In this document: one piece after another, positions 727 to 6,014 of the stretch
How positions within the stretch are numbered: the stretch's first letter is position 1
Layout of the letters: every line of letters starts with the position of its first letter
Origin: Candidatus Saccharimonadota bacterium
Lineage (GTDB): Bacteria > Patescibacteriota > Saccharimonadia > Saccharimonadales > Saccharimonadaceae
Direction of reading: 5' to 3'
Assembly (NCBI GenBank): GCA_017514905.1
Contig: JAFWIK010000023.1
Coordinates: forward strand, 1 to 32,812
Length of the DNA: 32,812 nt
Program-made: the position numbers and the translations under genes
The notes under the pieces: generated by a model
Seen by the model: the letters and a program-made list of their open reading frames with translations, nothing else
The model's database searches: none
What the model was told of the DNA's origin: nothing

Positions 727-2922
727 ATGTTCAAAAGAATCGTCAAACGGGATGGTAAAATCGTCAAATTTGATCCCGATAAAATTACCGAGGCCATCGC
801 GAAAGCTGGCCTTGCCACTGAAGAGTTTAAGTATGACCGCGCTAAAGCTCTGACCGAAAAAGTTTTAAAACGTGCCGATGAAACAATTACCACTCGTACT
901 CCTAATGTCGAGCAGATTCAGGACATCGTCGAAGAAGTTCTGATGGAGTCCAGCTTCAAAAAGACGGCTAGGGCTTACATTCGTTATCGCCAAGAGCGTT
1001 CTCGTGTCCGTGATGCGAAATCTGATCTCATGATGATTTATCGTACAATTTCTCATGCTGACGCCTCCGAAGATTCCGATATTAAACGCTCAAATGCTAA
1101 TGTTGACGGCAACTCCGCCATGGGTAAAATGCTTCAATTCGGCGCTGAAGGCTCCAAAGTTTTTGCTAAGTCTTTACTTTTAAGACCAGACATCGCTGCC
1201 GCTCATGATAATGGTGACATTCATATTCACGATCTTGATTTTTACGCCACCGGCACTCTGACTTGCTGCCAGTCCGATCCTTTCCGCATGTTCGAAAATG
1301 GTGGTTTTAATACTGGCCACGGTCATCTTCGCACTCCAAATTCGATCGCTTCTTATGGTGCGCTTGCGGCTATCTTACTCCAAGCCAATCAAAACGAGCA
1401 ACACGGCGGTCAATCTATTCCGAATTTCGATTACGCTATGGCGCCAGGCGTTCACAAATCTTTCCGTAAAGCTTTAAAGAAGAATCTTGAAAAATATAAT
1501 AAATTCACTGGCAAAAAACTTAATCTCACTATCAAAGATGATTACGAATATGGCGACGACAAGAGGTTGAAGAAAGACAAATGGCCCAAAGAAATCATTG
1601 AAACTTCTAATGAAGATGTTGAACGTGAAACATTCCAAGCCATGGAGGGCTTCATTCACAACCTCAACACTATGCACTCCCGTGCTGGCGCTCAGGTGCC
1701 ATTCACTAGTATTAATTTCGGTACCGACACTACTCCAGCCGGTCGCCTAGTTTCAAAATGTTTGCTTGAGGCTACTGAAAATGGTCTAGGCAAAGGCGAA
1801 ACTCCAATTTTCCCAATTTCAATTTTCAAAGTTAAAGAAGGCGTTAACTATAATCCTGAAGATCCTAATTATGATCTCTTCCAGAAATCTATGGCCGTTT
1901 CTGCTAAACGTCTTTTCCCGAACTTCTGTTTTATCGATGCTCCGTACAATCTCAAGTACTACAAGAAAGGTGATTATCGCACTGAGATTGCTACCATGGG
2001 TTGCCGCACTCGCGTCTTCTCGTCGGTCTTCCCAGAATCTGATGGTATCGTGACTGGTCGTGGCAACCTTTCCTTTACCACTATTAATTTGGTTCGTATC
2101 GGTATCAAACACGGCATTTGCTTGAAAGAAAGAAAAGAAGCTGATTGGGATGGTTTCTACAAAGAGCTTGATGAAAAAATGGATCTGGTAAAAGACGAGC
2201 TCTTAGACCGATTCGATTTCCAAGCCAAGCAGCATGTTCGTAATTTCCCGTTTCTCATGGGACAAGGGAACTGGTTTGGCTCCGAAAAACTTGGACCAAA
2301 TGACACTTTACGTGACGTTATCAAACACGGTACGCTCTCTATCGGTTTCATTGGCCTAGCTGAAACCCTCGTTGCTATGACTGGCAAACACCATGGTGAA
2401 GACGAAGACGCTCGCGATCTCGGCCTTGATATCGTTAGTCATATGCGCGAAAAATGCGACGGTTATTGCAAGAAATATCATCTAAATTTCAGTTTACTCG
2501 CTACTCCAGCCGAAGGCATTGCTGGTCGATTTACCAAGCTTGACCGCAAAGAATACGGCAAGATTAAAGGTGTTACCGATCGTGAATTCTATACCAACTC
2601 ATTCCATGTGCCAGTTTATTTCCCAATTTCTGCCTTCGAAAAAATTGAAATTGAGGCACCTTATCATGCGCTTTGTAACGCTGGTCACATTACCTATATC
2701 GAGCTCGACGGTGATCCATCTCAAAATCTCCCAGCCTTCGAAGCCGTGATTCGTAAAATGCACGATGAGGGTGTTGGCTACGGTTCCGTTAACCATCCAG
2801 TTGACCGTGATCCAGTTTGTGGCTTTTCTGGTGTAATCTCTGGCGATCGCTGCCCGCACTGTGGCCGTCTTGAAGGTGATGTCCCATTCGAAAAGGTTTG
2901 CAGTTGCGCCAAAGGAGAATAG
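727..2922 (+). CDS. nrdD: Anaerobic (class III) ribonucleoside-triphosphate reductase
   Basis: Reduces ribonucleotides to deoxyribonucleotides in the absence of oxygen; the family is activated by the radical-SAM enzyme NrdG, encoded next. The 731-residue product has an N-terminal ATP-cone (about 3-92, starting F-K-R-I-V-K-R-D-G) that should bind ATP/dATP as an allosteric site. The catalytic barrel follows, with a Cys pair at 180-181 after H-I-H-D-L-D-F and the finger-loop Cys426 in M-G-C-R-T-R. The C-terminal zinc-ribbon cysteines are Cys698 and C709-P-H-C712. The start at ATG 727 is set by GAAGGAGG at 714-721; in-frame TTG 703 and ATG 712 lie upstream of or in that site. Oddity: after V-P-F-E-K-V (719-724) the usual R-R-x-x-G-Y glycyl-radical segment and basic tail are absent; the protein ends C-S-C-A-K-G-E. 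No frame shift restores the motif. The stop directly abuts nrdG. Confidence 0.95.
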   Translation: MFKRIVKRDGKIVKFDPDKITEAIAKAGLATEEFKYDRAKALTEKVLKRADETITTRTPNVEQIQDIVEEVLMESSFKKTARAYIRYRQERSRVRDAKSDLMMIYRTISHADASEDSDIKRSNANVDGNSAMGKMLQFGAEGSKVFAKSLLLRPDIAAAHDNGDIHIHDLDFYATGTLTCCQSDPFRMFENGGFNTGHGHLRTPNSIASYGALAAILLQANQNEQHGGQSIPNFDYAMAPGVHKSFRKALKKNLEKYNKFTGKKLNLTIKDDYEYGDDKRLKKDKWPKEIIETSNEDVERETFQAMEGFIHNLNTMHSRAGAQVPFTSINFGTDTTPAGRLVSKCLLEATENGLGKGETPIFPISIFKVKEGVNYNPEDPNYDLFQKSMAVSAKRLFPNFCFIDAPYNLKYYKKGDYRTEIATMGCRTRVFSSVFPESDGIVTGRGNLSFTTINLVRIGIKHGICLKERKEADWDGFYKELDEKMDLVKDELLDRFDFQAKQHVRNFPFLMGQGNWFGSEKLGPNDTLRDVIKHGTLSIGFIGLAETLVAMTGKHHGEDEDARDLGLDIVSHMREKCDGYCKKYHLNFSLLATPAEGIAGRFTKLDRKEYGKIKGVTDREFYTNSFHVPVYFPISAFEKIEIEAPYHALCNAGHITYIELDGDPSQNLPAFEAVIRKMHDEGVGYGSVNHPVDRDPVCGFSGVISGDRCPHCGRLEGDVPFEKVCSCAKGE

Positions 2923-3477
2923 ATGAATACGGATTGGCACAAGATTTCTTTAGAGAAAATCTCAAAGCAGCTTGAAACTCCAGAGGGTTACATTAGGCTT
3001 AGCGGCCCTCTGGAGCACGACAACATCGTCAACGGCGATGGCCTTCGTGTAGTTCTCTGGACACAAGGTTGTCCTAACCACTGCAAAGGTTGCCAAAACC
3101 CTGAGACTTGGGACTATGAAGCTGGCTTTTTAGTTAAAATTGATGATCTTAAAAACGAATTAAGAGAATTTAAAGGCCAAGCTGGTCTTACTTTCTGCGG
3201 CGGCGAACCTTTTGTTCAGGCTAAATCTTGCAAGGAAATTGCTGACTGGTGCCGTAAGGAACTTGGCTGGAATATTTGGAGCTTCTCTGGTTTTACTTAC
3301 GAGATTATCAAAGAACACGGTGGCGCTCCTTGGGAACTCCTCAAATCCTTGGATGCCCTAATTGATGGACCTTTTATTCTTAGCCAACGCGACCTCAGTC
3401 TCAGATTTCGCGGTTCCAAGAACCAGCGACTTCTAAGACTCGAGCTTGGTACCGGCAAAATCTTGTCAATTGAGTAA
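2923..3477 (+). CDS. nrdG: Anaerobic ribonucleotide reductase activating protein (radical SAM)
   Basis: A 184-residue radical-SAM enzyme that, in its family, cleaves S-adenosylmethionine to make the glycyl radical on NrdD. Cys50, Cys54 and Cys57 form the CxxxCxxC 4Fe-4S motif, preceded by N-G-D-G-L-R-V-V-L-W; F-C-G-G-E-P at about 87-92 is the SAM-binding GGE motif, and F-R-G-S-K-N-Q-R near the end is typical of NrdG. About 30 residues precede the usual family start. ATG 2923 follows the nrdD stop with no gap, and AAAGGAG at 2911-2917 within the nrdD end is its ribosome site, so the two genes are co-transcribed and probably translationally coupled. The intact activase makes the missing radical motif in NrdD puzzling. 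Confidence 0.95.
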   Translation: MNTDWHKISLEKISKQLETPEGYIRLSGPLEHDNIVNGDGLRVVLWTQGCPNHCKGCQNPETWDYEAGFLVKIDDLKNELREFKGQAGLTFCGGEPFVQAKSCKEIADWCRKELGWNIWSFSGFTYEIIKEHGGAPWELLKSLDALIDGPFILSQRDLSLRFRGSKNQRLLRLELGTGKILSIE

Positions 3478-4403: not shown

Positions 4404-5879
4404 ATGAATAAAAAGATCGCTAAAACCGATTCCGAGCGTGTCAAACGTGCGGTTGAAGTAGCAAAAAACGCCCACGAAGGTCAGTTTCGAAAAACTGGCG
4501 AGCCCTATATCGTGCATCCTTTAGCCGTTAAAAAAATCCTCGAGGAATGGGGCATGGACGAGGACACTATCATTGCTGGTATTTTGCATGACACCGTTGA
4601 GGACACCGACCTCACTCTTGATGACATCCGCAAAGAATTCGGCGATTCTGTAGCTTTTCTAGTTGATGGTGTTACTAAGCTCTCTACTGCACGCGACGGT
4701 ATGCGCGACATCGATACCTATCTCCCTGCGACCAAAGATAATTTTCTTCGTCTCATGATTGCCCTCGGTGATGATATTCGAGTCCTGATCATTAAGCTCG
4801 CTGATCGTTTGCATAATTTGCGTACGCTTTCGGCCCTCCCGCCCGATAAACAGAGAAAAATCGCTAAAGAGACTCTCGAGATTTTTGCTCCCTTAGCTGA
4901 TCGGCTCAATATGGGGCTCCTTCGTGTTGAGCTTTCAGATCTTTCTTTTAAGTATGTCGACCCCAGACGTTTTGAAGAACTTAAAAAATTGATTGAGACT
5001 CGCAATAAATCCGCCGAAAAATCCCTCAAAAAGATCGAAGAAGAAGTCACTGCCGCCCTAAAAAAAGAAAAAATCAAGTTCGAGCTCTCTGGTCGCGTGA
5101 AGTCAGTTTACTCGCTTCACAAAAAACTTGCCAAATATGATCAAAATATCAACGCGGTTTATGATCTCACAGCTCTCCGCGTAATCGTGGATGATGTCAC
5201 TGATTGTTATTTGGCGCTTGGCATCATTCATTCGCTTTATACTCCTATGAATGGCCGGATTAAAGACTATATTGCTATGCCTAAACAAAACGGCTACCAA
5301 TCCATCCATACTACTGTAATTACTAAAGATAAGCATGTTGTCGAATTCCAGATTCGTACCAAAGAAATGCACGAATACGCCGAGCGTGGTCTCGCTGCCA
5401 GCTTTTATTATAATGAGCAAAAATTAACAGAGAACTATAAAAAAGGGAAGATCGAGCATCTTCCCACAAATCTGCTTTGGATTACCGAGCTGCAAATGAC
5501 TGCTGCTAAGCTTCGCGAAGGTAAAAAGGTAGATTTGAAAAAACTCAAGATCAATCTTTTTGCCGATAAAATCTTCGTTTACACCCCGAAGGGTGATATT
5601 ATCGATTTGCCAAAGGGAGCTTTGCCACTTGATTTTGCTTATCGTCTGCACTCCGAGATTGGTGACCATGTAGTAGGTGTAAAGATCAACGGGAAGATGA
5701 GCAACTTGAATAAAAAATTAGAACAAGGCGACATCGTCGAAATCCTCACTTCCAAAAATCAAACTCCTAAAACCTCCTGGCTTGACCGCATCATCACTTC
5801 GCATGCCCGCACTAAGTTGCTTCACGCTCTTCGTCCTTCCACAATCCCAGATCGGCCTGCCAAGAAAAAGCGCAAATAA
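4404..5879 (+). CDS. rel: Bifunctional (p)ppGpp synthetase/hydrolase, short Rel/SpoT form
   Basis: Makes and degrades the alarmone (p)ppGpp that controls the stringent response. The 491-residue protein has an N-terminal HD hydrolase domain with H62-D63 followed by E66-D67 in H-D-T-V-E-D. A RelA synthetase domain follows, with Y253-D254 in Y-D-L-T-A-L-R-V-I and E314 in E-F-Q-I-R-T, then a TGS domain from about 390 (F-V-Y-T-P-K-G-D-I). It stops soon after TGS; the helical, zinc-finger and ACT regions of ~740-residue Rel proteins are missing, so ribosome sensing may be simplified. The family G-x-A-A-H-W segment reads G-L-A-A-S-F here. ATG 4404 is preferred over TTG 4389 because the -10 box lies between them. 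Both catalytic sites look intact. Confidence 0.93.
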   Translation: MNKKIAKTDSERVKRAVEVAKNAHEGQFRKTGEPYIVHPLAVKKILEEWGMDEDTIIAGILHDTVEDTDLTLDDIRKEFGDSVAFLVDGVTKLSTARDGMRDIDTYLPATKDNFLRLMIALGDDIRVLIIKLADRLHNLRTLSALPPDKQRKIAKETLEIFAPLADRLNMGLLRVELSDLSFKYVDPRRFEELKKLIETRNKSAEKSLKKIEEEVTAALKKEKIKFELSGRVKSVYSLHKKLAKYDQNINAVYDLTALRVIVDDVTDCYLALGIIHSLYTPMNGRIKDYIAMPKQNGYQSIHTTVITKDKHVVEFQIRTKEMHEYAERGLAASFYYNEQKLTENYKKGKIEHLPTNLLWITELQMTAAKLREGKKVDLKKLKINLFADKIFVYTPKGDIIDLPKGALPLDFAYRLHSEIGDHVVGVKINGKMSNLNKKLEQGDIVEILTSKNQTPKTSWLDRIITSHARTKLLHALRPSTIPDRPAKKKRK

Positions 5880-5881
5880 TG

Positions 5882-5890
5882 TGGTATAAT
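5882..5890 (+). promoter_or_regulatory. Extended -10 promoter of tRNA-Thr
   Basis: TGGTATAAT lies 14 bases before the mature tRNA 5' end, leaving a short 5' leader for RNase P to remove. Confidence 0.7.
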
Positions 5891-5904
5891 AACATCAGAC
5901 AGAC

Positions 5905-5980
5905 GCCGATGTAGCTCAGTTGGTAGAGCAGCTCATTCGTAACGAGCAGGTCACAGGTTCGATCCCTGCCATCGGCTCCA
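5905..5980 (+). tRNA. tRNA-Thr (anticodon CGT)
   Basis: Acceptor stem GCCGATG (5905-5911) pairs with CATCGGC, followed by T73 and an encoded CCA ending at 5980. The D arm is GCTC...GAGC, the anticodon loop TTCGTAA carries CGT, which reads ACG, and the T-loop is TTCGATC. Two A-C mismatches are visible: the last pair of the anticodon stem and the outer pair of the T stem. The gene overlaps neither neighbour and is followed by T6. Confidence 0.95.
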
Positions 5981-6014
5981 TTTTTTAAGGTTCGATCAGA
6001 CGACGAAGTGAATA

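Follow-up and report, generated by a model that had tools for sequence, protein, structure and literature searches.

A probable split class III ribonucleotide reductase in Candidatus Saccharibacteria with its radical glycine on a separately encoded protein

Introduction

Where does a class III ribonucleotide reductase (RNR) carry its glycyl radical when the catalytic subunit, NrdD, ends before the radical glycine? The question is raised by an nrdD gene in a 32,812-nt stretch of DNA (hereafter the window), which is contig C9 of a Candidatus Saccharimonadota genome (G000; 700 kb in 26 contigs, 86.8% complete, 3.84% contaminated) and which, among named entries, most closely matches Candidatus Saccharibacteria, chiefly of ruminant-gut origin. 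In the NrdD of P. copri the radical cysteine is Cys416 and the radical glycine Gly711, as given in the accessible part of PMC11226230. A preliminary description of the window had reported that its NrdD lacks a recognisable glycyl-radical site and had offered three explanations, namely a separate small protein that supplies the glycine, a different chemistry, or a damaged gene.

Results

The features discussed below are collected in Table 1. Translation of positions 727-2919 yields 731 residues with the C-terminus ...CPHCGRLEGDVPFEKVCSCAKGE, followed by a stop codon at 2920, and the matches to three family models all end early: PF13597 (E 1.2e-179) is covered from model position 2 to 529 of 562, TIGR02487 from 2 to 548 of 581, and the NF011292 match ends at 581 of 618. 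PRK07111 matched with 1028 bits, and the P. copri NrdD (8p23) with E 1.2e-182 over aligned residues 1-714. The last ~33 PF13597 positions, those holding the radical glycine, are absent and the rest of the protein is intact. The thiyl cysteine lies in a GCRTR loop of the barrel, as is characteristic of class III RNRs, and Cys426 is invariant in all 20 rows of an NrdD alignment (A7); a radical-glycine segment in the same polypeptide, likewise characteristic, is missing. The translation and the model end points confirm the preliminary description of an NrdD that terminates in CSCAKGE without a glycyl-radical site. Its statement that the motif is found in no frame before nrdG also holds, since no NrdD-type RRxTGY segment occurs in any frame of the window; the matches to a looser RxxGY-like pattern all lie in contexts other than an NrdD-type segment. 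The zinc ribbon, described earlier as intact, does have Cys698, Cys709 and Cys712, but it is not the four-Cys form, the first Cys being replaced by Asp695 (codon 2809-2811). Because these four residues are invariant in 20 of 20 A7 rows, full-length relatives among them, the substitution is unrelated to the truncation. The same Asp stands at the first zinc-ribbon Cys position of a viral NrdD (L153, RDPVCG). The predicted structure of the truncated NrdD had a mean pLDDT of 61, too low for use. Upstream of nrdD, a GC-rich palindromic stretch (499-585) interrupts an AT-rich intergenic region; no repeat copy of it was seen within the window and no repeat family was found for it.

Table 1. Features of the split RNR; coordinates refer to the window unless a contig is named.
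Feature	Position	Strand	Evidence
nrdD, truncated class III RNR catalytic subunit, 731 aa	727..2922	+	PF13597, PRK07111, 8p23 alignment
N-terminal ATP-cone of NrdD, intact, residues 4-92	736..1002	+	PF03477, E 6.7e-22
Cys426 codon, thiyl-radical cysteine	2002..2004	+	aligned with P. copri Cys416 (8p23)
Zinc-ribbon region: Asp695, Cys698, Cys709, Cys712	2809..2862	+	sequence, 8p23 alignment, A7
Variable replacement tail CSCAKGE, where relatives have RRITGYLVG...	2899..2919	+	sequence and relatives
Shine-Dalgarno-like AAAGGAG of nrdG (putative), within nrdD 3' end	2911..2917	+	sequence
nrdG, radical-SAM activase, 184 aa	2923..3477	+	TIGR02491, 132.3 bits (cut-off 126.1)
N-terminal extension of NrdG, 23 residues before IRLSGPL	2923..2991	+	comparison across loci
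S, ~145 aa, radical segment RRITGYLVG	G000:C11:10325-10759	-	NrdD-tail profile

The activase gene begins at 2923 with no gap after nrdD, and its product scores above the TIGR02491 cut-off, in agreement with the earlier statement that NrdG is intact. The codons of the NrdD tail residues AKGE (GCC AAA GGA GAA TAG ATG) overlay the putative Shine-Dalgarno sequence and the start of nrdG, which is probably why (A)KG(E/K) recurs in otherwise variable truncated tails, from which it is sometimes absent. The window NrdG also has an N-terminal extension. Among truncated loci, an extension of at least 20 residues before IRLSGPL was present in 63 of the 63 in which NrdG was located (of 81 loci), compared with an extension of at least 15 residues in 12 of the 43 full-length loci in which it was located (of 60); at the remaining loci no NrdG was found within the stretch examined. 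The extension may be an adaptation to a two-protein enzyme.

Alignment of the C-termini of relatives, as the preliminary description had proposed, revealed that the truncation recurs with different tails. Among 110 loci, most NrdD frames end in short variable tails after CPHCGRLEGD..FE(K/R)(V/L/I), and the remainder run on through FERLRRITGYLVG(S/T)L(E/D)RWND.KKAEE.ARVKH. Inspection of 141 NrdD frames, in which some species were fetched twice and which exclude two loci missed by the ORF script (L234 and L271), gave 81 without the radical segment, one of these (L110) being a contig-end fragment, and 60 with it. In an NrdD-core tree of 97 rows (37 truncated and 60 full-length, thinned from 140 by keeping truncated rows under 94% identity, with L110 not placeable for want of a cut point), the truncated rows require one change and form a clade with SH-aLRT 80, adjoined by full-length sister lineages. 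The cis radical segment of NrdD was lost once, in the ancestor of the truncated clade. Relatives with the normal motif, which had been named as grounds for refutation, thus do exist, but they do not refute the truncation, because the split form derives from these sister lineages. The other proposed ground, a sequencing or assembly error, is excluded by the same truncation in dozens of independent genomes. A programmed frameshift, intron or misassembly at 2880-2930 was likewise considered and rejected, given that the truncation is clade-wide, the tails differ and nrdG follows immediately. For the window nrdD, dN/dS was 0.016 against L109 (dS 0.40) and 0.017 against L031 (dS 1.5); two further pairs gave 0.02-0.04, and four pairs were saturated at synonymous sites. 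These low ratios indicate that the truncated nrdD is kept as a working protein under strong purifying selection.

With six normal NrdD tails as a profile, a scan of 36 genomes of the genus recovered such tails and a separate frame of ~145 codons, here called S. All 18 genomes that encode a truncated NrdD had this frame, as did 7 of the 17 that encode the full-length form; the remaining genome, G021, held neither NrdD nor the radical segment. The N-terminus of S reads MK(K/N/Y)I(I/V)Y and is preceded in most cases by purine runs resembling ribosome-binding sites. FERLRRITGYLVG is unchanged in all 27 aligned S proteins, and residues 85-117 of the G000 copies correspond to the missing end of NrdD. 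In four S proteins tested, the matches covered PF13597 from 531/532 to 562, NF011292 from 582/584 to 617 and TIGR02487 from 548/550 to 581; since these ranges start where the window NrdD stops, the two proteins are complementary halves. In the alignment with P. copri NrdD, Gly94 of S falls on the radical glycine, and two S pairs gave dN/dS of 0.02-0.05. PF01228, the family of GrcA/YfiD and T4 Y06I, had no match at E up to 10 in the four S proteins, and a PF01228 search of G000 returned only the NrdD body, below the cut-off, with no GrcA-like protein above it. S, with its NrdD-type radical segment and no PF01228 match, therefore lies outside the GrcA/YfiD family, contrary to the earlier suggestion that the missing partner would be GrcA/YfiD-like.

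In the truncated clade the gene for S is found in a single conserved block, between polA and a group comprising fpg, a holA-like gene and rpsT; the block varies slightly between genomes, and all gene names, including rnhB, were read from sequence. S of the full-length lineages is located elsewhere, four times near an rnhB-like gene. As S is distant from nrdDG, there is no operon link between them. The S proteins of the truncated clade have HVSC or HASC in 20 of 20 rows, and those of full-length genomes have L, V or R at the Cys in 7 of 7; the Cys is a change that accompanied the split. G000 itself has two S copies, on contigs C11 (L112) and C17 (L113). In the S tree, from which L221 and L229 were omitted as repeats of these two, the C11 copy groups with L143 and L144 from the nearest sister genomes and the C17 copy with L126 from another genome. 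Because of this grouping, the same gene block around both copies and the contamination estimate of G000 (3.84%), C17 is probably a contaminant contig. The C17 copy served as the first row of the S alignment (A3) and as a query, with no effect on the conclusions.

S-profile and NrdD searches across the genus (147 genomes), in which most truncated genomes were classed from match tables as having no long frame with the radical segment, placed truncated NrdD in 79 genomes (74 with S and 5 with S undetected) and full-length NrdD in 62 (40 alone and 22 with S). The other six comprised two with S and no NrdD match (G097, 77% complete, and G132, 85%), one with S and an NrdD fragment (G152, residues 1-265 only, counted outside the 79) and three with neither (G021, G119 and G161). 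At completeness of at least 93%, S accompanied truncated NrdD in 48 of 48 genomes and full-length NrdD in 14 of 34. A repeat search at E 10 of the five truncated genomes without S (G076, G093, G124, G137 and G163) was also empty, and incompleteness is the likely cause, two of the five being 92% complete. PF02867, the class I/II RNR large chain, was detected in 0 of 147 genomes and in 11 of 14 control genomes, so that NrdD is the only RNR seen in the genus, and another RNR in these genomes is rejected as far as the class I/II large chain is concerned. Of 379 genomes sampled across the phylum, 371 had no match to the S profile, which includes the radical segment, and the matches were confined to this genus and a sister genus (g32); in g32, S and full-length NrdD occurred together in 4 of 4 genomes. 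The simplest history is that a separate segment was added to a full-length NrdD, that the cis segment was then lost once, and that S was lost in other lineages. One genus offers an evolutionary series of cis segment only, cis segment plus separate piece, and separate piece only.

The first ~80 residues of S matched no Pfam, NCBIfam or PHROG family convincingly. The Pfam ATP-cone gave no match in S at E up to 10, and hhalign of this N-terminal domain against the NrdD ATP-cone returned a probability of 6-9%, so sequence comparison alone fails to support an ATP-cone assignment. The fold was assessed on a phage homologue (L146), modelled from a five-row alignment (A6) with a mean pLDDT of 71 and N-domain blocks at 77-90. 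Foldseek found nothing in the PDB at E <= 0.001 for this model, and most of its best rows were RNR or NrdR chains. With VIA-align, the top 19 rows for the N-domain were all ATP-cone proteins, at Z 5.5-8.1 (Z under 8 can reflect a common arrangement) and rmsd 2.1-3.1 over 73-79 residues; the next row, at Z 4.7, was an unrelated protein. On this model the N-domain of S likely has the ATP-cone fold, and S may consequently associate with the ATP-cone of NrdD or be under nucleotide control. The KRDG loop of the NrdD ATP-cone is absent from S.

A scan of IMG/VR with the S profile gave 47 loci. L146-L150 are homologous to S over most of its length (residues 4-121 or more), at 47-55% identity, and in L146, L147, L148 and L150, which are distinct sequences, the S homologue lies downstream of a terminase large subunit gene (recognised by clustering in L147); further genes of these loci encode a portal protein (L148), a dihydrofolate reductase (L147) and, in L150, a MazG-like protein. 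L147 (9633-9923) and L148 (6305-6607) also encode small CxxC proteins of one cluster, without a Pfam or PHROG match, which are possibly glutaredoxin-like and part of the same nucleotide module. Many other IMG/VR loci contain frames of 49-137 codons that end in the NrdD-type segment after unrelated N-termini. For 36 of the 47 loci PF13597 was compared with the entire record, itself possibly a fragment, and 33 of these records held the segment only, without an NrdD core. L153 and L172 combine a truncated NrdD core with a separate segment, whose gene comes before nrdD in L153 and directly after it in L172, and L184 has an NrdD matching positions 15-560 plus a separate segment. In the cultured Eggerthella phage EL753P1 (L274, OP172808.1 4595-9672) the annotated nrdD stops after the zinc ribbon, and the radical segment lies unannotated downstream with its frame broken at RRI/TGYL, a break that may be real, spliced, decayed or an error. 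Since L153, L172 and EL753P1 share the split point of the window NrdD, the split probably arose more than once at the same boundary; the phage cases may have a single origin among themselves.

Intron-like stretches of ~240-840 nt interrupt small segment genes in L180 (~5260-5993) and upstream of the matches in L187-L192, with insertion points at the radical glycine (RRITG^YLVG or RRI^TGYLVG); Rfam at gathering level, applied to the six loci other than L189, named no intron. A stand-alone NrdD-type segment of 54 codons is also found in 'plasmid 8' of Subdoligranulum variabile (90.5 kb; L275 2947-3108, OY725842.1), and no other part of NrdD was noticed in the scanned 6 kb.

Discussion

The co-occurrence of S with the truncated NrdD and the lack of a class I/II large chain make it most likely that the radical is held in trans, and we assign a probability of roughly 0.88 to the reading, drawn from sequence comparison, that the window enzyme is a split class III RNR whose glycyl radical is carried by S. 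The preliminary suggestion of a separate small protein supplying the glycine is thereby strongly supported, an S frame being present in G000 and in 74 of the 79 truncated genomes. In the proposed mechanism, NrdD would contribute the ATP-cone, the barrel with its thiyl cysteine and the zinc-ribbon region that it has kept, and S would provide in trans the ~35-residue radical segment that NrdD has lost. The RRITGYLVG loop of S would insert into NrdD next to Cys426, NrdG, bearing an N-terminal extension specific to the clade, would form the radical on Gly94 of S, and the radical would then pass from Gly94 to Cys426, with ribonucleotide reduction proceeding as usual. We put forward more tentatively, as a picture less likely than not to be right, an obligate two-protein enzyme in which S combines an ATP-cone-like domain with the radical segment and docks, perhaps cone to cone, under a nucleotide switch on radical delivery, in which radical subunits encoded by phages of anaerobic gut bacteria rescue or take over host NrdD, and in which, in one Saccharibacteria clade, a spare part has become the sole radical site.

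Three other explanations have to be set against a radical carried in trans. That S is a mere repair part for oxygen-cleaved NrdD, comparable to YfiD for pyruvate formate-lyase (PFL) and not obligatory, would fit the presence of S in 22 of 62 full-length genomes, the pairing of S with full-length NrdD in all four g32 genomes, and the phage records with a radical segment alone. In the truncated clade, however, there is no cis segment to mend and no class I/II large chain, so S must be obligatory there; a repair function has very little chance of being the answer for the window, and the role of a spare part is likely the ancestral one of S rather than its role in the window lineage. Slightly less improbable, though still very unlikely, is that no glycyl radical is involved, the 5'-deoxyadenosyl radical of NrdG oxidising Cys426 directly while S has another job. 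NrdG and Cys426 are intact and the NrdG extension is present in all 63 truncated loci in which NrdG was located, as direct activation would permit, but S holds a near-perfect copy of the missing segment, invariant in 27 of 27 proteins, and its co-occurrence with the truncation would be left unexplained. A different chemistry, as raised in the preliminary description, is unneeded given S.

We regard as the least probable explanation of all that NrdD is a decaying gene in epibionts that obtain deoxynucleotides from their hosts. Three of the 147 genomes (G021, G119 and G161) do lack both NrdD and S, and 371 of 379 phylum genomes gave no match to the S profile, radical segment included, so that life without it is possible in related lineages. 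Against decay stand a dN/dS of ~0.016 at dS 0.40 between the window and L109, a full-length frame with catalytic residues invariant across the clade, and the presence of S in 48 of 48 truncated genomes at completeness of at least 93%. The idea of a damaged gene is rejected on the near-0.016 ratio and the clade-wide conservation.

A glycyl radical normally resides in the very enzyme that it serves, and here a natural, apparently split NrdD is the sole RNR detected in its genomes. Such an enzyme would open to experiment how catalysis in one protein is driven by a glycyl radical located in another, whether docking of a radical subunit can serve regulation, and how phages may exploit or restore host NrdD in anaerobes. 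For NrdD genes without the glycine in general, the rest of the genome should be searched before the gene is called broken. A separate NrdD radical protein is not described in the accessible parts of papers on RNRs, split RNRs and GrcA (PMC9669993, PMC9531940, PMC3653736, PMC12338860, PMC12386605, PMC12288474). In the open-access literature, subscription papers being mostly outside our scope, we found no report of an NrdD spare part and nothing that pairs NrdD with Saccharibacteria.

In comparison with known systems, the window enzyme shares with a canonical class III RNR (P. copri, 8p23) the ATP-cone, NxN flap, barrel, thiyl cysteine, zinc-ribbon region and adjacent nrdG, and it differs in having the radical glycine on a second polypeptide and three Cys and one Asp in the zinc-ribbon region. 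Other RNRs likewise consist of two or more coding pieces, among them class II NrdJa/NrdJb, the genes-in-pieces nrdA of Aeh1, the fragmented nrdD of phiAS4 and the intron-split nrdD of T-even phages; as far as the available portions of PMC9669993 and PMC3653736 go, these splits mainly involve introns, inteins, homing endonucleases or class II domains, and none is described as moving the NrdD radical glycine to a separate protein. Aminoacyl radical enzymes are also glycyl radical enzyme homologues without the catalytic glycine, but according to the part of PMC11528403 available they have Ala, Ser or Thr in its place in cis, whereas in the window the whole segment is gone and is found in trans with its Gly. 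A further parallel is with GrcA/YfiD and T4 Y06I, which are, like S, small separate proteins with a glycyl-radical domain and which, according to PMC8683613 and PMC12338860, are activated by the parent activase and complete a core without a radical site of its own; PMC8683613 gives YfiD and Y06I, both for PFL, as the only validated spare parts, others being raised as a possibility. Unlike these two proteins, which serve PFL, S has an NrdD-type segment and an ATP-cone-like N-terminal domain as modelled, and in the truncated clade it is the only radical site, the parent gene having lost its own. From its sequence, the split NrdD of the window would be a class III RNR variant operating in the manner of a glycyl radical enzyme completed by a spare part, one that comes from outside the GrcA family.
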